Assembly (NCBI GenBank): GCA_011390165.1
Contig: JAABSV010000003.1
Coordinates: forward strand, 1 to 64,000
Length of the DNA: 64,000 bases
Source of the DNA: Desulfobulbaceae bacterium
GTDB taxonomy: Bacteria; Desulfobacterota; Desulfobulbia; Desulfobulbales; Desulfocapsaceae
Direction of reading: 5' to 3'
Part shown: positions 5,576 to 56,552 of the stretch, piece by piece
Layout: each line of letters starts with the position of its first letter
How positions within the stretch are numbered: position 1 is the stretch's first letter
Translations under genes and position numbers: made by a program
The notes under the pieces: model-generated
The model's input: the letters and a program-made list of their open reading frames with translations, nothing else
Database searches by the model: none
What the model was told of the DNA's origin: nothing

Positions 5576-5608
5576 GGTCTGCTTCCTTGTTGTGAAGATG
5601 GTTTGTGG

Positions 5609-5735
5609 TCGCCCGGTCAGGCCACCTGAGAGAGCAAGCCCTGGCTCGGCCTCCTGACTGAAAGAACCTGGAGCACTGGCTGAACGGGTACAGTCCGGGT
5701 TCTGCGACCTTTTGCTGCATACCGGTAAACGATTC
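5609..5735 (+). repeat. Dispersed repeat, copy 1 (left end missing)
   Basis: This 127-bp stretch matches the right three quarters of the repeat seen complete at 18259, 36754 and 40804. It shares the CGCCCGGTCAGGCC block, the GAACCTGGAGCACTGG block and the end CTTTTGCTGCATACCGG followed by TAAACGATT. The first about 28 bases, including the left inverted-repeat arm, are absent. It occupies the space between the cupin gene and the EamA gene. No open frame across it has a ribosome-binding site. Confidence 0.75.
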
Positions 5736-5849
5736 CATTTGTGGGCAACTTCCCTTCAGCCCCGCAGGACAGTTCCCGGGAAAAGGGGAGGGCCTGCATC
5801 AAGCCAGTTTGCACAATAGCGCCACCAGCCGAAAATGCAAGTTGGCAAC

Positions 5850-12219: not shown

Positions 12220-13157
12220 TGATTCTTGATATGAGCAAACGGCTGATCCTGGCCGCCCTTTTTGTCTGGCTGGCCCCCTCCTTTGCCCTGGCGGAGGGGA
12301 TCATCGCCGACCAGACCTTCAAGGCGGCCAACGAAATAGTTGTCACCTTCGCGGCACCGGTTGACCGGGCAGTGGTTGAGGAGGTGAACAACTACACCGT
12401 ATTTGAAGAACCGGATCCCGACATCCGCCTTGTTCTGCAGCAGGTGGCGCTGGCTGGAGATGGCCGCACCGCCTCGCTTTTCTTCACCGAGCCGCTCAAC
12501 ACCGCGACCACCCATGTCGTGCGGATTCGCGGCCTGGTCGGCGGAGAGACTACCTTCAAGGTGAGCAAGTCCTATTTTGGCTACCTGTTCGGGATCCTCA
12601 TTTCCGCCCTTTTGATCAACAACTTCGTCTTCACCAAGTACCTGGGCCTGTGCGTCTTTTTCGGAACCTCGAAGAAGAAGACTACCGCCAAGGGGATGGG
12701 GGTGGTCTTTACCATTGTTGCCGTGGTATCGGCATCGATGAGCTGGTTTCTCTATAACTTTGTCCTCATCCCCTTCGATCTCAACTTCCTGCAGATTGTC
12801 GTCTTTATCGGCCTCACCTCCTTGACCGTGCAGGCGGTGGACACGATTCTCCGTAAGGTCAACCCGGTCCTGTTCAACTCCTTTGGGGTGTTCCTGGTCC
12901 TGGTGATCGCCAACTGCGTCATCATCGCCATCCCGCTGATCATGGCGGGGAACGGGTATAACTTTTTTGAAACCTTCATGCTGGCCATCGGCGCCGGTGG
13001 TGGCTTTCTGCTCGCCCTTTACCTGATGAGTTCGGTGAGTGAGAGGTTGCAGCTGGCAAAGATTCCCCCGACCTATAAAGGACTGCCCATCGCCTTTATC
13101 GTCGCCGGCCAGTTTGCCATGGCCTTTCTAGGCTTTTCCGGGTTGCAACTTTTTTAG
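12219..13157 (+). CDS. rnfA: Rnf complex subunit RnfA with secreted N-terminal domain
   Basis: Residues from about 117 to the end form a normal RnfA: six membrane segments with the NNFVFTKYLGLC motif. RnfA is normally about 190 residues; this product is 312. The additional N-terminus starts with a signal-peptide-like segment (ending near ALAEG, residue about 27) and continues with about 90 residues rich in beta strands whose pattern (VTFAAPVDRAVVEEVNNYTV ... FTEPLNTATTHVVRI) resembles SbsA/Big_5 Ig-like domains. RnfA homologues are reported to place their N-terminus outside, which would put this domain in the periplasm. The start overlaps rnfE, so the extension is part of the operon frame. 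Confidence 0.92.
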   Translation: MILDMSKRLILAALFVWLAPSFALAEGIIADQTFKAANEIVVTFAAPVDRAVVEEVNNYTVFEEPDPDIRLVLQQVALAGDGRTASLFFTEPLNTATTHVVRIRGLVGGETTFKVSKSYFGYLFGILISALLINNFVFTKYLGLCVFFGTSKKKTTAKGMGVVFTIVAVVSASMSWFLYNFVLIPFDLNFLQIVVFIGLTSLTVQAVDTILRKVNPVLFNSFGVFLVLVIANCVIIAIPLIMAGNGYNFFETFMLAIGAGGGFLLALYLMSSVSERLQLAKIPPTYKGLPIAFIVAGQFAMAFLGFSGLQLF

Positions 13158-13167
13158 AATTCCCGGT

Positions 13168-13204
13168 GCTGCAGCCTTTTGCTGCCTACCGGTGAACGAT
13201 TACC
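13168..13204 (+). repeat. Dispersed repeat, right-end fragment inside the rnf operon
   Basis: These 37 bases between rnfA and rnfB match only the right terminus of the dispersed repeat: the CCTTTTGCTGC box followed by TACCGGTGAACGATTACC, which contains the right inverted-repeat arm. The rest of the element is absent. It begins 10 bp after the rnfA stop. The rnfB start is 46 bp beyond it, so the fragment makes up most of the rnfA-rnfB spacer. Confidence 0.7.
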
Positions 13205-18258: not shown

Positions 18259-18426
18259 GGTACCCGTTCACCAGCACCCCATTTTCGCCCGGGTCAGGCC
18301 ACCACATAGGGCAAATTCATAGAGCCAACTCTATCTCTGCGGCCTGTCTGAACCAATTTCAAGCACTGGATGAACGGGTACCGTCTGGATGTTGCTGCGT
18401 TTTGCTGCATACCGGTGAACGATTAC
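18259..18426 (+). repeat. Dispersed repeat, complete copy 2
   Basis: A 168-bp element bounded by imperfect inverted repeats. The left end reads GGTACCCGTTCACCAGCA, and the right end, read on the other strand, GTAATCGTTCACC followed by GGTATGCAGCA. Between them lie the shared blocks CCCATTTTCGCCCGGGTCAGGCC and ACTGGATGAACGGGTAC. It sits in the 518-bp gap between the ModF-like gene and the CheB/CheR gene. The remainder of that gap (18025-18258 and 18427-18542) shows no supported gene. Confidence 0.82.
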
Positions 18427-23845: not shown

Positions 23846-25261
23846 TCAGAGATTGTGCTTGTGGATTTTCTTGTACAGCAGGGTGCGATGGATGCCAAGC
23901 ATCCGGGCGGCCTTGGCCTTGTTCTGGCCGCTTTCCTGCAGGGCGAGGACAATGGCCTCCTTTTCCGCCTGCTCCTGAATCTGCCGGATGGGGGCGGTGG
24001 TGCCGCCCTTGCCGCCGCCCTCCTTGGGGTGGAGGTAGAAGGGGAGATCCTGGACTCTCACCCAGTTCCCCTCCAGGGAAGAGAGGGTCCGTTCCACCAC
24101 GTTGGCCAGTTCCCTGACATTGCCGGGCCAGTCGTAGCCCTCCAGGGCAGAGGCGGCAGCCTGGCTGAAGTCAACTTCGCTCAGGTGGGCCTCACTGCGC
24201 AACTGCTGCAGGAGGTGGCGACCGATGGGGAGGATGTCCTCGGGGCGTTCACGCAAGGGGGGAATGGTCATCGAGAAGACGTTCAGGCGGTAAAAGAGGT
24301 CCTTGCGGAAGCGGTTTCCGGCCAGGAGCCGTTCTAAATTCTGGTTGGTGGCGGCGATCAGGCGAAAGTCGGAGCGGATCAGCTGGGTTCCCCCCACCCG
24401 TTCGAACTCCTTTTCCTCGAGGACCCGGAGGAGCTTCGGCTGCATCTCCAGGGGCAGGTCACCGATCTCATCGAGAAAGATGGTGCCCCGGTGGGCCAGC
24501 TCAAATTTTCCCGGTTTGCCCTGCGGGGCGGCGCCGCTGAAGGCCCCCCGTTCGTAGCCGAACAGCTCTGATTCGAACAGATCCCTGGGAATGGCGGCGC
24601 AGTTGATCCGGACGAAGGGGTGCAGCTTCCGTTCGCTGGCATGGTGGATCGCCTGCACGAAGAGCTCCTTGCCGGTGCCGCTCTCGCCGCAGATCAATAC
24701 CGGAAAATTGCTGGCGGCCGCCCGCAGGGCCTCGTTTTTCAAGGTGGCGAGGGTCTGGCTCACCCCGACAATGCTGTCGATGGTGTAGCGGATCGAGCGG
24801 AGGGCCAGCAGTTCCGCCTCGTACACCTCCAGTTTTGACTCGAGCAGGGAGAGCTGCTTGGCCAGGCGGCCGAGGTCGCGAACATCCTTGAAGAGTACCA
24901 GCCCGAACACCGCAATCACCGTACCCCCCTTTTTGATCGGGATGCGGTGGACCACCATGTTCTGTCCCATGATCCGCTGGCTGTGGCTGAATTCGGGGAT
25001 TCCAGTACGGGCGACGATGTGCATCCGGCTGTTTTCGATCACCTCGGTACAGTGTCTGCCGATTTGTGCGGCCGGGTCGAGGCCGAGAAAGCGGCCGTAG
25101 GGTTGGTTGAAATGGGTGATGTAGCCGTCACGATCGGTGACGAGAGCACCGTAATGGATGTGCTCGAAGATGAGGGTGTAGATCTCGAGCTCTTCCCGGA
25201 GGCGGTCCTGTTCTTCCAGCCTTTCGGGTGAGTCCGGTAATGGTCCAGGCAGGGTATCCAT
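23846..25261 (-). CDS. Sigma-54-dependent activator with N-terminal PAS domain
   Basis: The 471-residue protein has a PAS sensor (residues about 25-130), a coiled linker, an AAA+ domain (Walker A GESGTGKE at 192-199) and a C-terminal Fis-type helix-turn-helix (NKAKAARMLGIHRTLLYKKI). The sigma-54 contact loop reads GAFSGA (239-244) instead of the usual GAFTGA, a conservative Thr-to-Ser change. There is no receiver domain, so it probably senses a ligand. It diverges from the CoA-transferase gene, which has a -24/-12 promoter, making that gene the likely target. A palindrome lies just upstream of its start at 25274-25286. Confidence 0.92.
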   Translation of the reverse strand: MDTLPGPLPDSPERLEEQDRLREELEIYTLIFEHIHYGALVTDRDGYITHFNQPYGRFLGLDPAAQIGRHCTEVIENSRMHIVARTGIPEFSHSQRIMGQNMVVHRIPIKKGGTVIAVFGLVLFKDVRDLGRLAKQLSLLESKLEVYEAELLALRSIRYTIDSIVGVSQTLATLKNEALRAAASNFPVLICGESGTGKELFVQAIHHASERKLHPFVRINCAAIPRDLFESELFGYERGAFSGAAPQGKPGKFELAHRGTIFLDEIGDLPLEMQPKLLRVLEEKEFERVGGTQLIRSDFRLIAATNQNLERLLAGNRFRKDLFYRLNVFSMTIPPLRERPEDILPIGRHLLQQLRSEAHLSEVDFSQAAASALEGYDWPGNVRELANVVERTLSSLEGNWVRVQDLPFYLHPKEGGGKGGTTAPIRQIQEQAEKEAIVLALQESGQNKAKAARMLGIHRTLLYKKIHKHNL

Positions 25262-25538: not shown

Positions 25539-27185
25539 ATGCAGAGCACAGCAGCATCCGCCCCCCCCTCAGAGTGCAGACGGCCGGTCGCAGCCGGCAA
25601 GGTTGTCAGCGCCGCCACTGCCGCAGCGGCAATTGCTGATGGCAGCACCATTGCCACCGGCGGTTTTGTCGGCACCGGTTTTCCCGAGGAGATTGCCATT
25701 GCCCTGGAAAAACATTTTCTTGCCCACCAGCGGCCACGAAACCTGACCATGGTCTATGCCGCCGGGCAGGGTGACGGCAAGGAGCGTGGGCTCAACCACT
25801 TCGGCCATGACGGCATGGTCCGGCGGGTGATCGGCGGCCACTGGGGGCTGGTGCCGAAACTGCAGCAACTGGCAATTGACAACCGGATCGAGGCCTACAA
25901 CCTCCCCCAGGGGGTGATCTCCCACCTCTACCGCGATATTGCCGCCAAAAAACCGCGCACCATCACCTCGGTGGGGCTGGGAACCTTTGTCGACCCGCGC
26001 CTGGGCGGGGGGCGGATCAACAGTGCCACCACAGAGAATATTGTCGAACTGATCAACTTCGACGGTGTCGAGTACCTTGCCTATCGAACCTTTCCCATCC
26101 ATGTCGCCATCCTGCGGGGAACCACCGCCGACGAAAGCGGCAATGTCACCATGGAAAAGGAGGCCCTGACCCTCGATTCCCTGGCCATGGCGATGGCGGC
26201 AAAAAATTCCGGTGGCATGGTTATCGTCCAGGTGGAGCGGATCGCCGACCGCGGTACTCTCCATGCCAGACAGGTTAAGATTCCAGGTATTCTGGTCGAT
26301 TACGTGGTTGTCTCGGAACCTGCCAACCACTGGCAGACCTTCGGCGACTGCTACCACCCGGCTCGCAGTTGTGAGATTCGTATCCCTCTCCAGTCGTTGC
26401 CGATCATGGCGATGAGCGCCAGGAAAATCATCGCCCGGCGGGCGGCCTTCGAACTACGGGCCGGCAGTATCGTCAATCTCGGTATAGGCATGCCGGAGGG
26501 GGTAGCCAATGTTGCCAACGAGGAGGGGGTTCTCGACCAGCTCACCCTCACCACGGAACCGGGAGTGATCGGCGGTCTCCCCGAAGGGGGGCTCAATTTC
26601 GGTTCGGCCATCAATACCGAGGTGCTCATCGACCAGAACGCCCAGTTTGATTTTTATGACGGTGGCGGCCTGGACCTCGCCTTTCTCGGGCTGGCCCAGG
26701 CCGATCGCCAGGGCAATCTCAACGTCAGCAAGTTCGGCCCCCGTCTGGCCGGTGCCGGTGGTTTTATCAATATCAGCCAGAACGCCCGCAAGGTGGTGTT
26801 TGTCGGCACCTTCACCGCCGGCAGGCTGGAGGTGGTGACTGCCGAAGGGAAGCTGCAGATCATCAGTGATGGCGACAGCGTAAAGTTCGTCGACCAGGTG
26901 GAACATGTCACCTTCAGCGGCCTCTATGCGATGCGCAAGGGGCAGCAGGTGCTCTATATCACCGAGCGCTGTCTCTTTCAGCTGACCCCGGCCGGCATGG
27001 AACTGATCGAAATTGCCCCGGGAGTCGACCTGCAGCGGGACATCCTCGCCAAAATGGCCTTCACCCCGCTGATCCGGGAACCGCTACTAGAGATGGATGG
27101 GCGAATTTTCAGGCAGGAGCCGATGGGTCTGCGGAAGGGTGAATCGTTCACCGGTATGCAAAGGCTGTCGAAGCCGGATCTGTAA
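25539..27185 (+). CDS. Acyl-CoA:carboxylate CoA-transferase (propionate/acetate type)
   Basis: Class I CoA-transferase in which both halves are fused in one 548-residue chain, as in propionate CoA-transferase (Pct) and YdiF. The catalytic Glu is Glu340 in TTEPGVIGG; GLGTFVDPRLGGGR and GSIVNLGIGMPEGV mark the two halves. It would move CoA between acyl-CoA and short-chain acids such as acetate, propionate or lactate. A sigma-54 promoter and divergent activator point to substrate-induced control. The last 14-15 residues, after GLRKGE, are encoded by a copy of the dispersed repeat and match no family feature. The ATG is weakly supported; homology starts near residue 20. Confidence 0.9.
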   Translation: MQSTAASAPPSECRRPVAAGKVVSAATAAAAIADGSTIATGGFVGTGFPEEIAIALEKHFLAHQRPRNLTMVYAAGQGDGKERGLNHFGHDGMVRRVIGGHWGLVPKLQQLAIDNRIEAYNLPQGVISHLYRDIAAKKPRTITSVGLGTFVDPRLGGGRINSATTENIVELINFDGVEYLAYRTFPIHVAILRGTTADESGNVTMEKEALTLDSLAMAMAAKNSGGMVIVQVERIADRGTLHARQVKIPGILVDYVVVSEPANHWQTFGDCYHPARSCEIRIPLQSLPIMAMSARKIIARRAAFELRAGSIVNLGIGMPEGVANVANEEGVLDQLTLTTEPGVIGGLPEGGLNFGSAINTEVLIDQNAQFDFYDGGGLDLAFLGLAQADRQGNLNVSKFGPRLAGAGGFINISQNARKVVFVGTFTAGRLEVVTAEGKLQIISDGDSVKFVDQVEHVTFSGLYAMRKGQQVLYITERCLFQLTPAGMELIEIAPGVDLQRDILAKMAFTPLIREPLLEMDGRIFRQEPMGLRKGESFTGMQRLSKPDL

Positions 27186-27200
27186 CGTTCTTCCTGGTCG
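27139..27200 (-). repeat. Dispersed repeat fragment forming the end of a gene
   Basis: From 27139 the sequence aligns with the start of the minus-strand copy at 52607: GAATCGTTCACCGG, ATGCA, AAGG, a GCCGGAT block and TGTA-n-CGTTC. There is a short gap and a few substitutions. The CoA-transferase stop codon (27183-27185) falls inside it. Similarity fades after about 27200, so this is a partial copy. Confidence 0.65.
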
Positions 27201-27241
27201 ACTAGCAAGGGCGGCGATAATCGATAGATGGAGCAGAGTTG

Positions 27242-27270
27242 TTGCAATAACAGGTAGGACCAATTATATT
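27242..27270 (+). promoter_or_regulatory. Candidate sigma-70 promoter of the first TRAP operon
   Basis: A -35 box TTGCAA (27242-27247) and a -10 box TATATT (27265-27270) are separated by exactly 17 bp. They match the consensus at 4 of 6 and 5 of 6 positions. An operator-like GGTAGGACCAAT (27253-27264) fills most of the spacer. The first gene downstream begins at 27425. Confidence 0.6.
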
Positions 27271-27336
27271 TCTGCGCTTGGTCCTACCGTGATTGGTCCT
27301 ACCGCGATTGGTCCTACCTCTATTAGTACGACCAAT
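27253..27336. promoter_or_regulatory. Array of five GntR/FadR-like operator sites
   Basis: Four copies of a 15-bp unit start at 27277, 27292, 27307 and 27322. The first three read CTTGGTCCTACC or ATTGGTCCTACC plus three variable bases; the fourth reads ATTAGTACGACCAAT and is nearly palindromic. A fifth copy in the opposite orientation lies at 27253-27264, inside the promoter spacer. The core TNGTnnnACNA is the known pattern for FadR-subfamily GntR regulators (for example PdhR and LldR). No such regulator gene is in the window. The exact period and the promoter overlap suggest cooperative repression. Confidence 0.6.
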
Positions 27337-34573: not shown

Positions 34574-36751
34574 ATGGATAAGCAGGGTATCTATATCATG
34601 AGTATCAGTCTGCACGGGCTGATTCGAACCAATTCCCCCGAGCTTGGGCGTGACGCCGATACCGGCGGCCAGGTGAAATATGTTCTCGAGATGGCCAAAG
34701 TTCTCGGCGAGCTGCCGGAGGTGGCCAAGGTTGATCTGTTGACCAGGTACATCGACGACGAAACGGTCGGCAGCGATTACGCCCGCAACCTTGAAACCAT
34801 CTCCGCCAGGGCCCGCCTGGTCAGACTCCGCTGTGGCGGCCGGAAGTATCTGCGCAAGGAGCTGCTCTGGCCCCATCTCGAGGAGTATATCGACCAGGTG
34901 ATGCGCTTTATCAAACAGCAGGGTCGTACCCCCGACCTGGTCCACGGCCACTACGCCGATGCCGGCTATGTGGCTCGGGAACTGGCAGCCGCTTTCGATG
35001 TCCCCTTTGTCTTCACCGGGCATTCCATGGGGCGCAACAAACGGAAAAAACTGCTCGCCGATGGCCTTGCTCCCAGCAAAATGGAGCAGCAGTACAAGAT
35101 GAAGACCAGAATCGCCACCGAGGAGGAGATTATCGGCAGCGCCGATCTGATCGTCACCTCCACCAGCCAGGAGATTGAGCGTCAGTACGGCCTCTACAGC
35201 AGCCAACCGGCTGGTGTCTTCCGGGTGATCCCACCGGGTCTTGATCTGGAGACCTTTTACCCCTATTACGATGTGCAGCTTGATCCGGAACTGCTGAACG
35301 AGGAGGTCAAACAGACCAGGGTCGCCCTCCTTAAAGAGTTGCACAGGTTCTGGACGGTGCCGGAAAAGCCCTTTATCCTAGCACTCTGTCGACCCGACCA
35401 GCGCAAGAATATCAGCGGCCTGATCCAGGCATACGGCAACAGTCGGGAACTGCAGGCCGCCGCCAACCTGGCGGTCTTTGCCGGCATCCGTTCGGATATC
35501 GCCGCCATGGAGGAGAACGAGCGGGCGGTGCTCACCGACATGCTCCTCGATATGGACCGCTATGACCTCTACGGTCGCCTGGCCATCCCCAAGAAGCACA
35601 ACTTCTCCATCGAAGTGCCGGAACTCTATCGGCTCTGCGCGGAAAGCGGCGGCGTCTTCGTCAATCCCGCCCTGGTTGAGCCCTTTGGCCTGACCCTGAT
35701 CGAGGCCGCCGCCTGCGGCCTGCCCATCGTCGCCACCGACGATGGCGGTCCGGTGGAGATCGTCGGCAAATGCCAAAATGGGCTGCTGGTGGATGTGGCC
35801 GACCCGAAGGCCATTGCCCTGGCCATCGGCCGGATCATCTACGACCACGAACAGTGGCAGAACTACTCCAATAGCGGTATCAACGGGGTGCGCAGCCACT
35901 ATTCCTGGCAGGCCCACGGCAAGAGCTATCTGCAGGCGGTACAGGAGCTGCTGCCGGCCGGGCCCCACCCTTCCGCCCCAGCCGAAACTCCTGCCGAACG
36001 GCAGCGGCCCTCATTCGGTCGCCGTCTCCTGCAGGTTGGCCGGCTGCTGCTCACCGATATCGACAACACCCTGGTTGGTGCCCAGGGACCCATGCGCCAG
36101 CTCTTTGAACTGCTCACCGAAAAGAGAGAGGATCTGGCCTGGGGGGTGGCCACCGGTCGAAGCCTGGAGCTGACCATCGAGGTGATGACCGAACACGACT
36201 TCCCGATGCCGGACATCCTGGTCTGCTCGGTGGGGACGGAAATCTATTACGGTCCCGACCTGCGCATCGACAAGGGGTGGCAGAAGCACATCTCCTACCA
36301 CTGGAAGCCGGAGGCGATCAAGGACCTGCTGGACCGAGTGTCCTGCCTTCGTTCCCAGGAGGCGGAGGGACAGCGCAGCCACAAGATCAGTTACTATCTG
36401 GAGGAGGCCGGGCAGCTCGATACGGTCCGTGACCTGCTGCGTCGGGAAAAACTGGGCTGCCAGGTGATCTATTCCCACGGCCAGTTTCTTGACATCCTGC
36501 CGCTGCGGGCTTCGAAAGGGCGGGCTGCCGAGTATCTGCGCTACAAATACCAGTTTTCACCGCGTCAACTGCTGGTCGCCGGTGACTCCGGCAACGATGA
36601 GGACATGCTCAACACCGCCGCCAGGGCGGTGGTGGTCGGCAACCACAGCGACGAACTGCTGTGGCTGAAGAACCGCCCCAATGTCTACTTCAGCCCGCAC
36701 AACTGTGCCGCCGGAATCCTGGACGGGTTGCGCCATTACGGCTTTGTCTGA
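34574..36751 (+). CDS. Sucrose-phosphate synthase with C-terminal phosphatase-like domain
   Basis: The 725-residue protein has a GT4 glycosyltransferase part (residues 1-470) and a HAD phosphatase part. The first begins MSISLHGLIRTNSPELGRDADTGGQ, the donor-binding opening of sucrose-phosphate synthases, and later has FTGHSMGRNKRKKL, RPDQRKNISGLI and the EPFGLTLIEAAACGLPIVAT site. The second starts with LLLTDIDNTLVG near residue 495, whose Asp-x-Asp-x-Thr is the phosphatase signature, and ends with GDSGNDEDML. It should make sucrose-6-phosphate from an NDP-glucose and fructose-6-phosphate, and may dephosphorylate it. It converges with the sucrose synthase gene. Confidence 0.9.
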   Translation: MDKQGIYIMSISLHGLIRTNSPELGRDADTGGQVKYVLEMAKVLGELPEVAKVDLLTRYIDDETVGSDYARNLETISARARLVRLRCGGRKYLRKELLWPHLEEYIDQVMRFIKQQGRTPDLVHGHYADAGYVARELAAAFDVPFVFTGHSMGRNKRKKLLADGLAPSKMEQQYKMKTRIATEEEIIGSADLIVTSTSQEIERQYGLYSSQPAGVFRVIPPGLDLETFYPYYDVQLDPELLNEEVKQTRVALLKELHRFWTVPEKPFILALCRPDQRKNISGLIQAYGNSRELQAAANLAVFAGIRSDIAAMEENERAVLTDMLLDMDRYDLYGRLAIPKKHNFSIEVPELYRLCAESGGVFVNPALVEPFGLTLIEAAACGLPIVATDDGGPVEIVGKCQNGLLVDVADPKAIALAIGRIIYDHEQWQNYSNSGINGVRSHYSWQAHGKSYLQAVQELLPAGPHPSAPAETPAERQRPSFGRRLLQVGRLLLTDIDNTLVGAQGPMRQLFELLTEKREDLAWGVATGRSLELTIEVMTEHDFPMPDILVCSVGTEIYYGPDLRIDKGWQKHISYHWKPEAIKDLLDRVSCLRSQEAEGQRSHKISYYLEEAGQLDTVRDLLRREKLGCQVIYSHGQFLDILPLRASKGRAAEYLRYKYQFSPRQLLVAGDSGNDEDMLNTAARAVVVGNHSDELLWLKNRPNVYFSPHNCAAGILDGLRHYGFV

Positions 36752-36753
36752 GC

Positions 36754-36919
36754 GTACCCGTTCACCAGCAGCCCATTTTCGCCCGGTCAGGCCCTCGCAT
36801 TGAGCAAACTGATAGAGCCAACTCCAGTCCGGCGCCTGCCTGAACGAACCTGGAGCGCTGGCCGAACGGCTACAGTCTCAGGGGTCTGCGGCCTTTTGCT
36901 GCTTACCGGTGAACAAGTA
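36754..36919 (+). repeat. Dispersed repeat, complete copy 3
   Basis: A 166-bp copy that begins 2 bp after the stop codon of the sucrose-phosphate synthase gene and ends 15 bp before the stop codon of the convergent sucrose synthase gene. Left arm: GTACCCGTTCACCAGCAG; right arm read on the other strand: GTTCACCGGTAAGCAGCA. It fills the space between the two gene ends, where a bidirectional terminator might otherwise be expected. Confidence 0.82.
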
Positions 36920-36934
36920 GGTCTGCGCCACCGC

Positions 36935-40803: not shown

Positions 40804-40973
40804 GGTACCTGTTCACCAACACCCCATTTTCACCCGGTGAGGCCACCGCACAGAGCATACTCAAAAAGCCAACTTGAGCTCGCTGGCCAGCCTGAACGAA
40901 CCTGGAGCACTGGCTGAACGGCTACAGGTCACGGGTTCCGTAATCTTTTGCTGCCTGCTGGTGAACGATTACC
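40804..40973 (+). repeat. Dispersed repeat, complete copy 4
   Basis: A 170-bp copy with the clearest ends: GGTACCTGTTCACCAACA at the left and GGTGAACGATTACC at the right, forming imperfect terminal inverted repeats. Internal blocks shared with the other copies include CACCCCATTTTCACCCGG, GAACCTGGAGCACTGG and TCTTTTGCTGCC. It occupies much of the 390-bp gap between the thioesterase and PilZ genes. Confidence 0.83.
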
Positions 40974-49233: not shown

Positions 49234-49375
49234 GTACTCGTTTACCGGTATGCGGCAAAAGGATGCCGAACCCGAATCTGTACCCCTATGTCCAGAATTC
49301 CTGGTTCGTTCAGGCAGAACACCGAGCTGGAATTGGCCTTAAAAGGTGGCTTGAGCCGGCGAAAAAGAGGGCCAG
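49234..49375 (-). repeat. Dispersed repeat, degraded copy 5 (reverse orientation)
   Basis: Read on the minus strand this is a degraded copy of the element. The GTACTCGTTTACCGG, ATGCGGCAAAAGG and CCTGGTTCGTTCAGG blocks are clear, but the far terminus is degenerate and the left inverted-repeat arm is not recognisable. It lies in the 412-bp gap between the J-domain gene and the YrbL-like genes. The rest of the gap holds no supported gene. Confidence 0.65.
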
Positions 49376-49490
49376 ACCCGGCGAAAATAAAGGAACTGAA
49401 GAACGGCTGCCATCGCACCAGCCGGCCCGGGGAAGGGCGGAGGCTGGGGCCCTGGTCGGAGGGTGGTTGAAGTCCCCCCGGGGAGGGCGG

Positions 49491-52555: not shown

Positions 52556-52606
52556 AGTTGTTTGTAGGTGTCCAGAAGGGGCAAAAACCCTGATTGTTGG
52601 AAAAAA

Positions 52607-52766
52607 GGGAATCGTTCACCGGAATGCAGCAAAAGGTTGCGAAACCCGGATTTGTACCCGTTCATCCAGTGCTCCAGGTTCGTTCAGGCCGCCAAGCTAG
52701 AGTTGGTTCTGTTGGCTCTGTGAGGTGGCCTGAGCGGTTGAAAATGGGGTGCTGGTGAACCGGTAC
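52607..52766 (-). repeat. Dispersed repeat, complete copy 6 (reverse orientation)
   Basis: A 160-bp copy in reverse orientation. It starts GGGAATCGTTCACCGGAATG and finishes GGTGCTGGTGAACCGGTACG, giving both inverted-repeat arms. Internal blocks CCGTTCATCCAGTGCTCCAGG and GGCCTGAGCGGTTGAAAATGGGG match the plus-strand copies. It lies directly upstream of msbA on the divergent side. Confidence 0.82.
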
Positions 52767-53004
52767 GAAAAAAGGTTGTCGGCCGGAGGGTGGGGTGGTC
52801 GGTGTGCCAGCCCCGGCCACGACCCAGCCAACTTCTCAAGGAGAGCATGGCACAGAGCAACCGACTACCAGTAAGGCTTTTACCCTAAGGGTTGTCCTGC
52901 TGCAAAGAGTGTTTTTTCGAAAACTTCTCGCCAGACCGGTCCCGGTATGGAATAGTCAGACCGCTGCCTGTCGAGAAACCACTCTTTTTACCGAAAATAT
53001 CGCC
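52767..53004 (+). other. Leader region of the glycosyltransferase gene
   Basis: This 238-bp stretch between the repeat copy and the GTG start has no normal-sized gene. An ATG at 52847 with a strong AAGGAG site opens a 13-codon frame (MAQSNRLPVRLLP) ending at 52888. Imperfect inverted segments follow, TCTCGCCAGACCGGTC near 52926 against AGACCGCTGCCTGTCGAGA near 52958, with outer AAAGAGTG (52904) and CACTCTTT (52980). It may be a structured leader, but could also be decayed sequence. Confidence 0.3.

Positions 53005-55188: not shown

Positions 55189-56552
<1,364 letters not shown>

Follow-up and report, generated by a model that had tools for sequence, protein, structure and literature searches.

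A miniature transposable element family with a third, internal end and IS66-type termini in the Desulfobulbales

Results

The repeats dispersed through the window, by which we mean the whole stretch of 64,000 nucleotides analysed here, belong to a MITE family, that is, to a gene-less DNA transposon of about 150-170 bp. The reading we favour, at a probability of about 0.7, is that this MITE is mobilised by a DDE transposase acting in trans, which recognises ends of the IS66 type (GTAANCGTTCACC) and leaves an 8-bp target duplication. What is new is a layout with three ends, together with a hairpin whose arms covary between mobile lineages and not among dead copies.

Copies in the window and in the genome

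A sequence-only reading of this DNA had counted at least eight related stretches in the window, four complete and four partial, and all eight places were recovered both by BLASTN with the consensus and by a covariance model; the places were right, while their edges shift by about one base. The complete copies lie on the plus strand at 18260-18426, 36754-36920 and 40805-40972, and on the minus strand at 52608-52766. In the first, the left end occupies 18260-18272, an internal inverted end extends to 18381, and the right end follows at 18414-18426; in the other three, the hairpin formed between left and internal ends spans 36754-36873, 40805-40925 and 52654-52766, respectively. All four are matched at E values of 1e-33 to 1e-36 by the covariance model, which was built from 22 copies of the same genome, so that some of them are training members. 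Two degenerate copies reach about 1e-12, one on the plus strand at 5583-5736, where the left end is gone and the best match covers 5609-5734, and one on the minus strand at 49234-49387, with decay in its left half and a best match at 49234-49337. A plus-strand remnant at 13128-13203, consisting of the right tail alone (13161-13203), is found at 5e-8. The weakest place, on the minus strand at 27140-27245, overlaps with its right tail (27142-27184) the 3' end of a CoA-transferase ORF (25539-27185), and scores 0.004 with the covariance model and 7e-10 with BLASTN over 27142-27184. As a control, shuffling the window 50 times produced matches of at least 30 bits only twice. The genome-wide search that had been proposed as a check returned many copies: at least 40 in this genome (3.59 Mb, 108 contigs), corresponding to 40 places scored from 112 first-look candidates and constituting a lower bound, as they were counted by search only.

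Two further repeats were seen in the window. A 15-bp tandem repeat with three GATTGGTCCTACC-like units at 27274-27333 adjoins the weak remnant, and a 148-nt direct repeat of 74% identity, located within ORFs at 24386-24533 and 55750-55897, is probably paralogous coding sequence.

Target duplications and an empty site

The inverted-repeat ends that the sequence-only reading had proposed are real, although their outermost sequences are GTACCCGTTCACC on the left and GGTGAACGATTAC on the right rather than GGTAATCGTTCACC. Two features had escaped that reading: target duplications of 8 bp, and a third end motif, TGAACGGGTAC, which repeats the left end in inverted orientation some 120 bp within the element. 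Among 177 complete elements, drawn from about 25 genomes across the order, the 8-bp duplications are exact in 103, where shuffled pairing expects 0.6, and match in at least six of eight positions in 140, where 3.1 are expected. The elements of the genome studied here include 5 of 22 with an exact 8-bp duplication and another 5 at 7/8. Within the window, the copy at 52608-52766 is flanked by exact GAAAAAAG at 52600-52607 and 52767-52774, the copy at 36754-36920 by a 7/8 match (GTCTGAGC at 36746-36753, GTCTGCGC at 36921-36928), and that at 40805-40972 by a 5/8 match, while flank comparison shows the duplication of the copy at 18260-18426 to have decayed to 4/8.

The copy at 36754-36920 is inserted between convergent genes for sucrose-phosphate synthase and sucrose synthase, and its empty orthologous site is found in three related genomes (G019, G003 and G026), in which the joined flanks align contiguously over the junction; a match in a further genome, G008, was not reproduced across the junction and was discarded. 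As the exact target duplications and the empty site show mobility, they support the assignment as a MITE, which is further described by the length of 150-170 bp, well under the bound of about 600 bp for MITEs, the lack of genes, the many copies, and the terminal inverted repeats GTAANCGTTCACC ... GGTGAACGNTTAC. Copy number, 8-bp duplications, empty site and the IS66 ends found in the genus all agree with the non-autonomous mobile element that had been suspected from the architecture of the repeats. At several insertions flank-joined ORFs were seen; spurious ORFs are frequent in GC-rich DNA.

The family is not confined to one genome. Of the 258 genomes of the order, 84 carry its left-end signature, and they represent 35 of 69 genera; the reversed-pattern control has no match. 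The signature is most numerous in G039, a one-contig genome with 121 left ends. G038 has 74, and G003, from the same genus as the genome studied here, has 37, many of them belonging to young copies with exact duplications. The ends begin with GTAAGCG in G038 and in part of G039, and with GTAACCG in G003, whereas the variant GTACCCG is carried mostly by the decayed copies of the genome studied here. One locus with a left end alone (L115), considered as an autonomous element, proved to be a truncated copy.

Three ends and a covarying hairpin

An intact element carries, in this order, the left end, the inverted internal copy of the left end, and the right end. Left and internal ends are spaced by about 107 bp in most genomes and by about 120 bp in the genome studied here, and pair to form a hairpin about 105-125 nt long; the right end sits in a following tail of some 45 nt and lies about 150-170 bp from the left one. 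In one case (L087 of G003), an element extending from the left to the internal end only has an exact 8-bp duplication; judging from this single instance, the internal end is able to function as a true terminus. The count of hairpin-only elements takes in L087 alone; the other candidates listed were mostly right ends mistaken for the internal motif, or opposite-strand readings of the same element. In a G003 subfamily (L079, L081, L085, L087 and L089), an extra small palindrome, CGGAGTCTCCCGATGG..., is located close to the main hairpin's loop.

The left and internal arms covary between lineages, and the right end does not. At the variable base of the end motif, left and internal ends agree in 164 of 175 elements, compared to a mean of 127.9 and a maximum of 143 in within-genome permutations, while left and right ends agree in 21 of 175; these elements are related by descent, such that the agreements are not independent events. 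Among 44 diverse elements, 93.1% of cells pair on the minus strand, against 79.8% after shuffling and 34-43% for slid structures, 26 of 38 hairpin pairs have changed on both sides, and double-change cells number 197 against 57 in shuffled alignments, with the reservation that the structure was predicted from this same alignment, which favours it somewhat. Moreover, on the minus strand there are 268 G.U cells to 32 A.C cells, single transitions lead to G.U rather than A.C at 120:20, and in 171 of 175 elements the hairpin is more stable on the minus strand than on the plus strand. As a double-stranded cruciform would give no strand preference, such a bias suggests that the minus strand folds as RNA or as single-stranded DNA.

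Could the arms match without any selection for pairing? The correction of quasi-palindromes by template switching is a known process, and acting on imperfect palindromes during replication it would leave left and internal ends with shared changes that are missing from the right end. This is what is seen in 8 elements, in which AA replaces TT at bases 8-9 of both the left and the internal end, while TT is kept in the right one. However, identical mismatches between the arms recur from genus to genus, among them those at arm positions 16, 17, 23 and 24. The mismatches that remain are skewed towards G.U on one strand (120 vs 20), which correction alone would not produce, and the decaying copies described below are without compensation, though their age may be insufficient for any to have arisen. 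We regard template switching as the main rival, albeit a rather unlikely one, and a role of the hairpin in mobility as the reading that fits best. In its full form, in which the spread of this DDE-type MITE depends on the strand-specific hairpin between left and internal ends and the internal copy is also usable as a real end, it is put forward tentatively, as a possibility that falls short of even odds.

Decay of the resident copies

In the genome studied here, the copies behave like fossils that decay neutrally. Their divergence from the consensus is about 12% per column; in the 22 copies aligned, paired columns diverge by 12.1% and all columns by 12.7%, and compensated changes are about as many as in shuffles (10 vs 9.2). 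In line with this decay, RNAalifold did not recover the full hairpin from these copies. The orientation of flanking genes around 81 elements of many genomes is without clear bias (28 ++, 24 -+, 17 --, 12 +-).

These results bear on the alternative that the repeats encode a conserved RNA, regulatory or structural, or are intergenic repeats which the host has domesticated, and that individual copies are kept for their service to it. A stable, covarying hairpin in which G.U is favoured on one strand speaks for this alternative, and the elements do carry this conserved hairpin; an RNA gene devoid of terminal symmetry, the outcome named beforehand as fatal to a mobile element, is nonetheless not what emerged. 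Against a host function stand the mobility evident from exact duplications and the empty site, the equal divergence of paired and other columns with no excess of compensation, the lack of a clear gene-orientation bias, and the absence from the window of any Rfam family at gathering score. A search with Rfam 15 for known structured RNAs gave only sub-threshold matches in the window, to eukaryotic microRNA models. We therefore consider a host function highly improbable, and the regulatory option left open by the sequence-only reading finds no support in this genome. Rather, the neutral decay of resident copies suggests that the hairpin matters to the mobile lineage and, as it seems, not to the host. 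In a search of nine loci, the only Rfam match to reach gathering score was a c-di-GMP riboswitch beside a MITE copy (c-di-GMP-I-GGC, L246 of G069, positions 127-201, 75.4 bits at a gathering score of 59).

A probable IS66 connection

What, then, moves these elements? Members of the IS66 family have ends starting with GTAAGCG and make 8-bp repeats (PMC11946415; PMC3281130). The MITE shares both features, having GTAAGCG or a near variant at its ends and an 8-bp target duplication, yet at about 150 bp and with no transposase gene encoded it does not qualify as an IS66 element; judged by sequence, its ends and duplication are of the IS66 type. For the transposase gene with the same terminal repeats that was sought by the earlier reading, candidates with the same outermost bases exist within the genus, where IS66 elements end in GTAACCGTTCACC or GTAATCGTTCACC. 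Two of them, of 2440 bp in G005 (L057/L177) and of 2458 bp with GTAACCGTTCACCGGG at both ends in G012 (L101/L178), have their outer 11-16 bases in common with the MITE, and three more IS66 loci (L061, L063 and L106) have one MITE-like end each, making five IS66 loci in the genus that end in the MITE motif. Inside the outer 11-16 bases, no sequence common to the MITE and any IS66 element was found.

In the genome studied here, the IS66 transposase (PF03050) is present only as broken pieces on contigs C18 and C72. The earlier statement that the window holds no transposase stands for PF03050, which is absent from the window's contig, C31; other transposase families were screened in part.

Some IS66 insertion sequences of these genomes have two genes, as in L178 (621-1496 and 1489-2922, G012), L172 (G078) and L177 (G005); L178 encodes a protein with a DruA domain (PF14236) besides the IS66 transposase. 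This domain takes its name from the Druantia defence system. These DruA+IS66 insertion sequences have GTAACCGTTCACCGGG ends, and at the three with both ends visible an 8-bp duplication is absent.

A locus with the hairpin just upstream of an IS66 transposase gene (L165) was considered as the autonomous parent and rejected: compared with the protein of its relatives, the point of fusion is a few codons past the start, and the first bases of the contig already belong to the MITE, such that L165 is better taken as a MITE inserted near the IS66 start codon. At this place (L165/L171, G080:C156), the right end of the IS66 element interrupts a TonB-type receptor gene, and the contig start inside the MITE illustrates how such repeats break assemblies.

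The same MITE could also be served by a mobiliser outside the IS66 family that has similar ends and makes the same 8-bp duplication. In its favour, G038, one of the genomes in which young copies are most abundant, with 74 left ends and many exact duplications, has no PF03050 match, as is the case for several other rich genomes; in the family of G038, such a match occurs in one of 12 genomes, and the inspected IS66 elements are without target duplications. Draft assemblies, however, easily lose multi-copy elements, and the mobiliser of G038 could be absent from its draft for this reason. Further, end motif and duplication length are both hallmarks of IS66 (PMC11946415), and five IS66 loci of the genus end in the MITE motif. 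On balance, we judge a mobiliser from outside the family to be unlikely.

Discussion

Our favoured scenario is one in which an IS66-family transposase would move the MITE in trans, and in which the mobile lineage may need the hairpin for its spread, as minus-strand RNA or as single-stranded DNA. In the genome studied here, the family could have become extinct because its IS66 genes are broken. The analysis adds an IS66-ended MITE family that spans a bacterial order, with more than 100 left ends in some genomes, and in the three-end MITE it offers a testable case of a DDE transposon whose hairpin would serve mobility rather than the host. If only the ordinary part of the scenario holds, the result still helps annotation, as the repeats are neither genes nor RNAs nor regulators of the host.

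In the open literature, we found no description of this family and no MITE tied to IS66; subscription papers and ISfinder were outside the scope, such that an earlier description is possible. REP/REPIN sequences with RAYT and palindromes derived from IS200/IS605 make no target duplication on insertion, which sets this class apart from the present family with its 8-bp duplications. IS66 insertion sequences (PF03050; L177, L178) are alike in their GTAANCGTTCACC ends and in the 8-bp duplication that is a hallmark of their family (PMC11946415, PMC3281130), but differ in their size of about 2.4-2.8 kb and their transposase genes, and no third internal end or long hairpin was seen in them. The Chunjie MITE of Geobacter uraniireducens, from a genus formerly counted as deltaproteobacterial, is similar by description, with 178-235 bp, conserved ends and direct repeats (cited in PMC10969869).

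Closest in style are QMITE2 and the Correia/ERIC elements. Correia (NEMIS) and ERIC are likewise small interspersed elements with hairpin transcripts, which can affect mRNA processing (PMC10969869). Their hairpins act on host transcripts, whereas the resident copies of the MITE described here are without constraint. The ends and target duplications of Correia/ERIC differ from those of our family as well. QMITE2 of Coxiella burnetii, as far as its description goes, differs in its unrelated ends, in a REP core that is the target of IS1111, and in that a three-end layout does not feature there, yet it resembles our family in its length of about 150-190 bp, its strong RNA hairpin, its direct repeats, variable at 7-11 nt, and its small forms which are without part of the element (PMC5896051).
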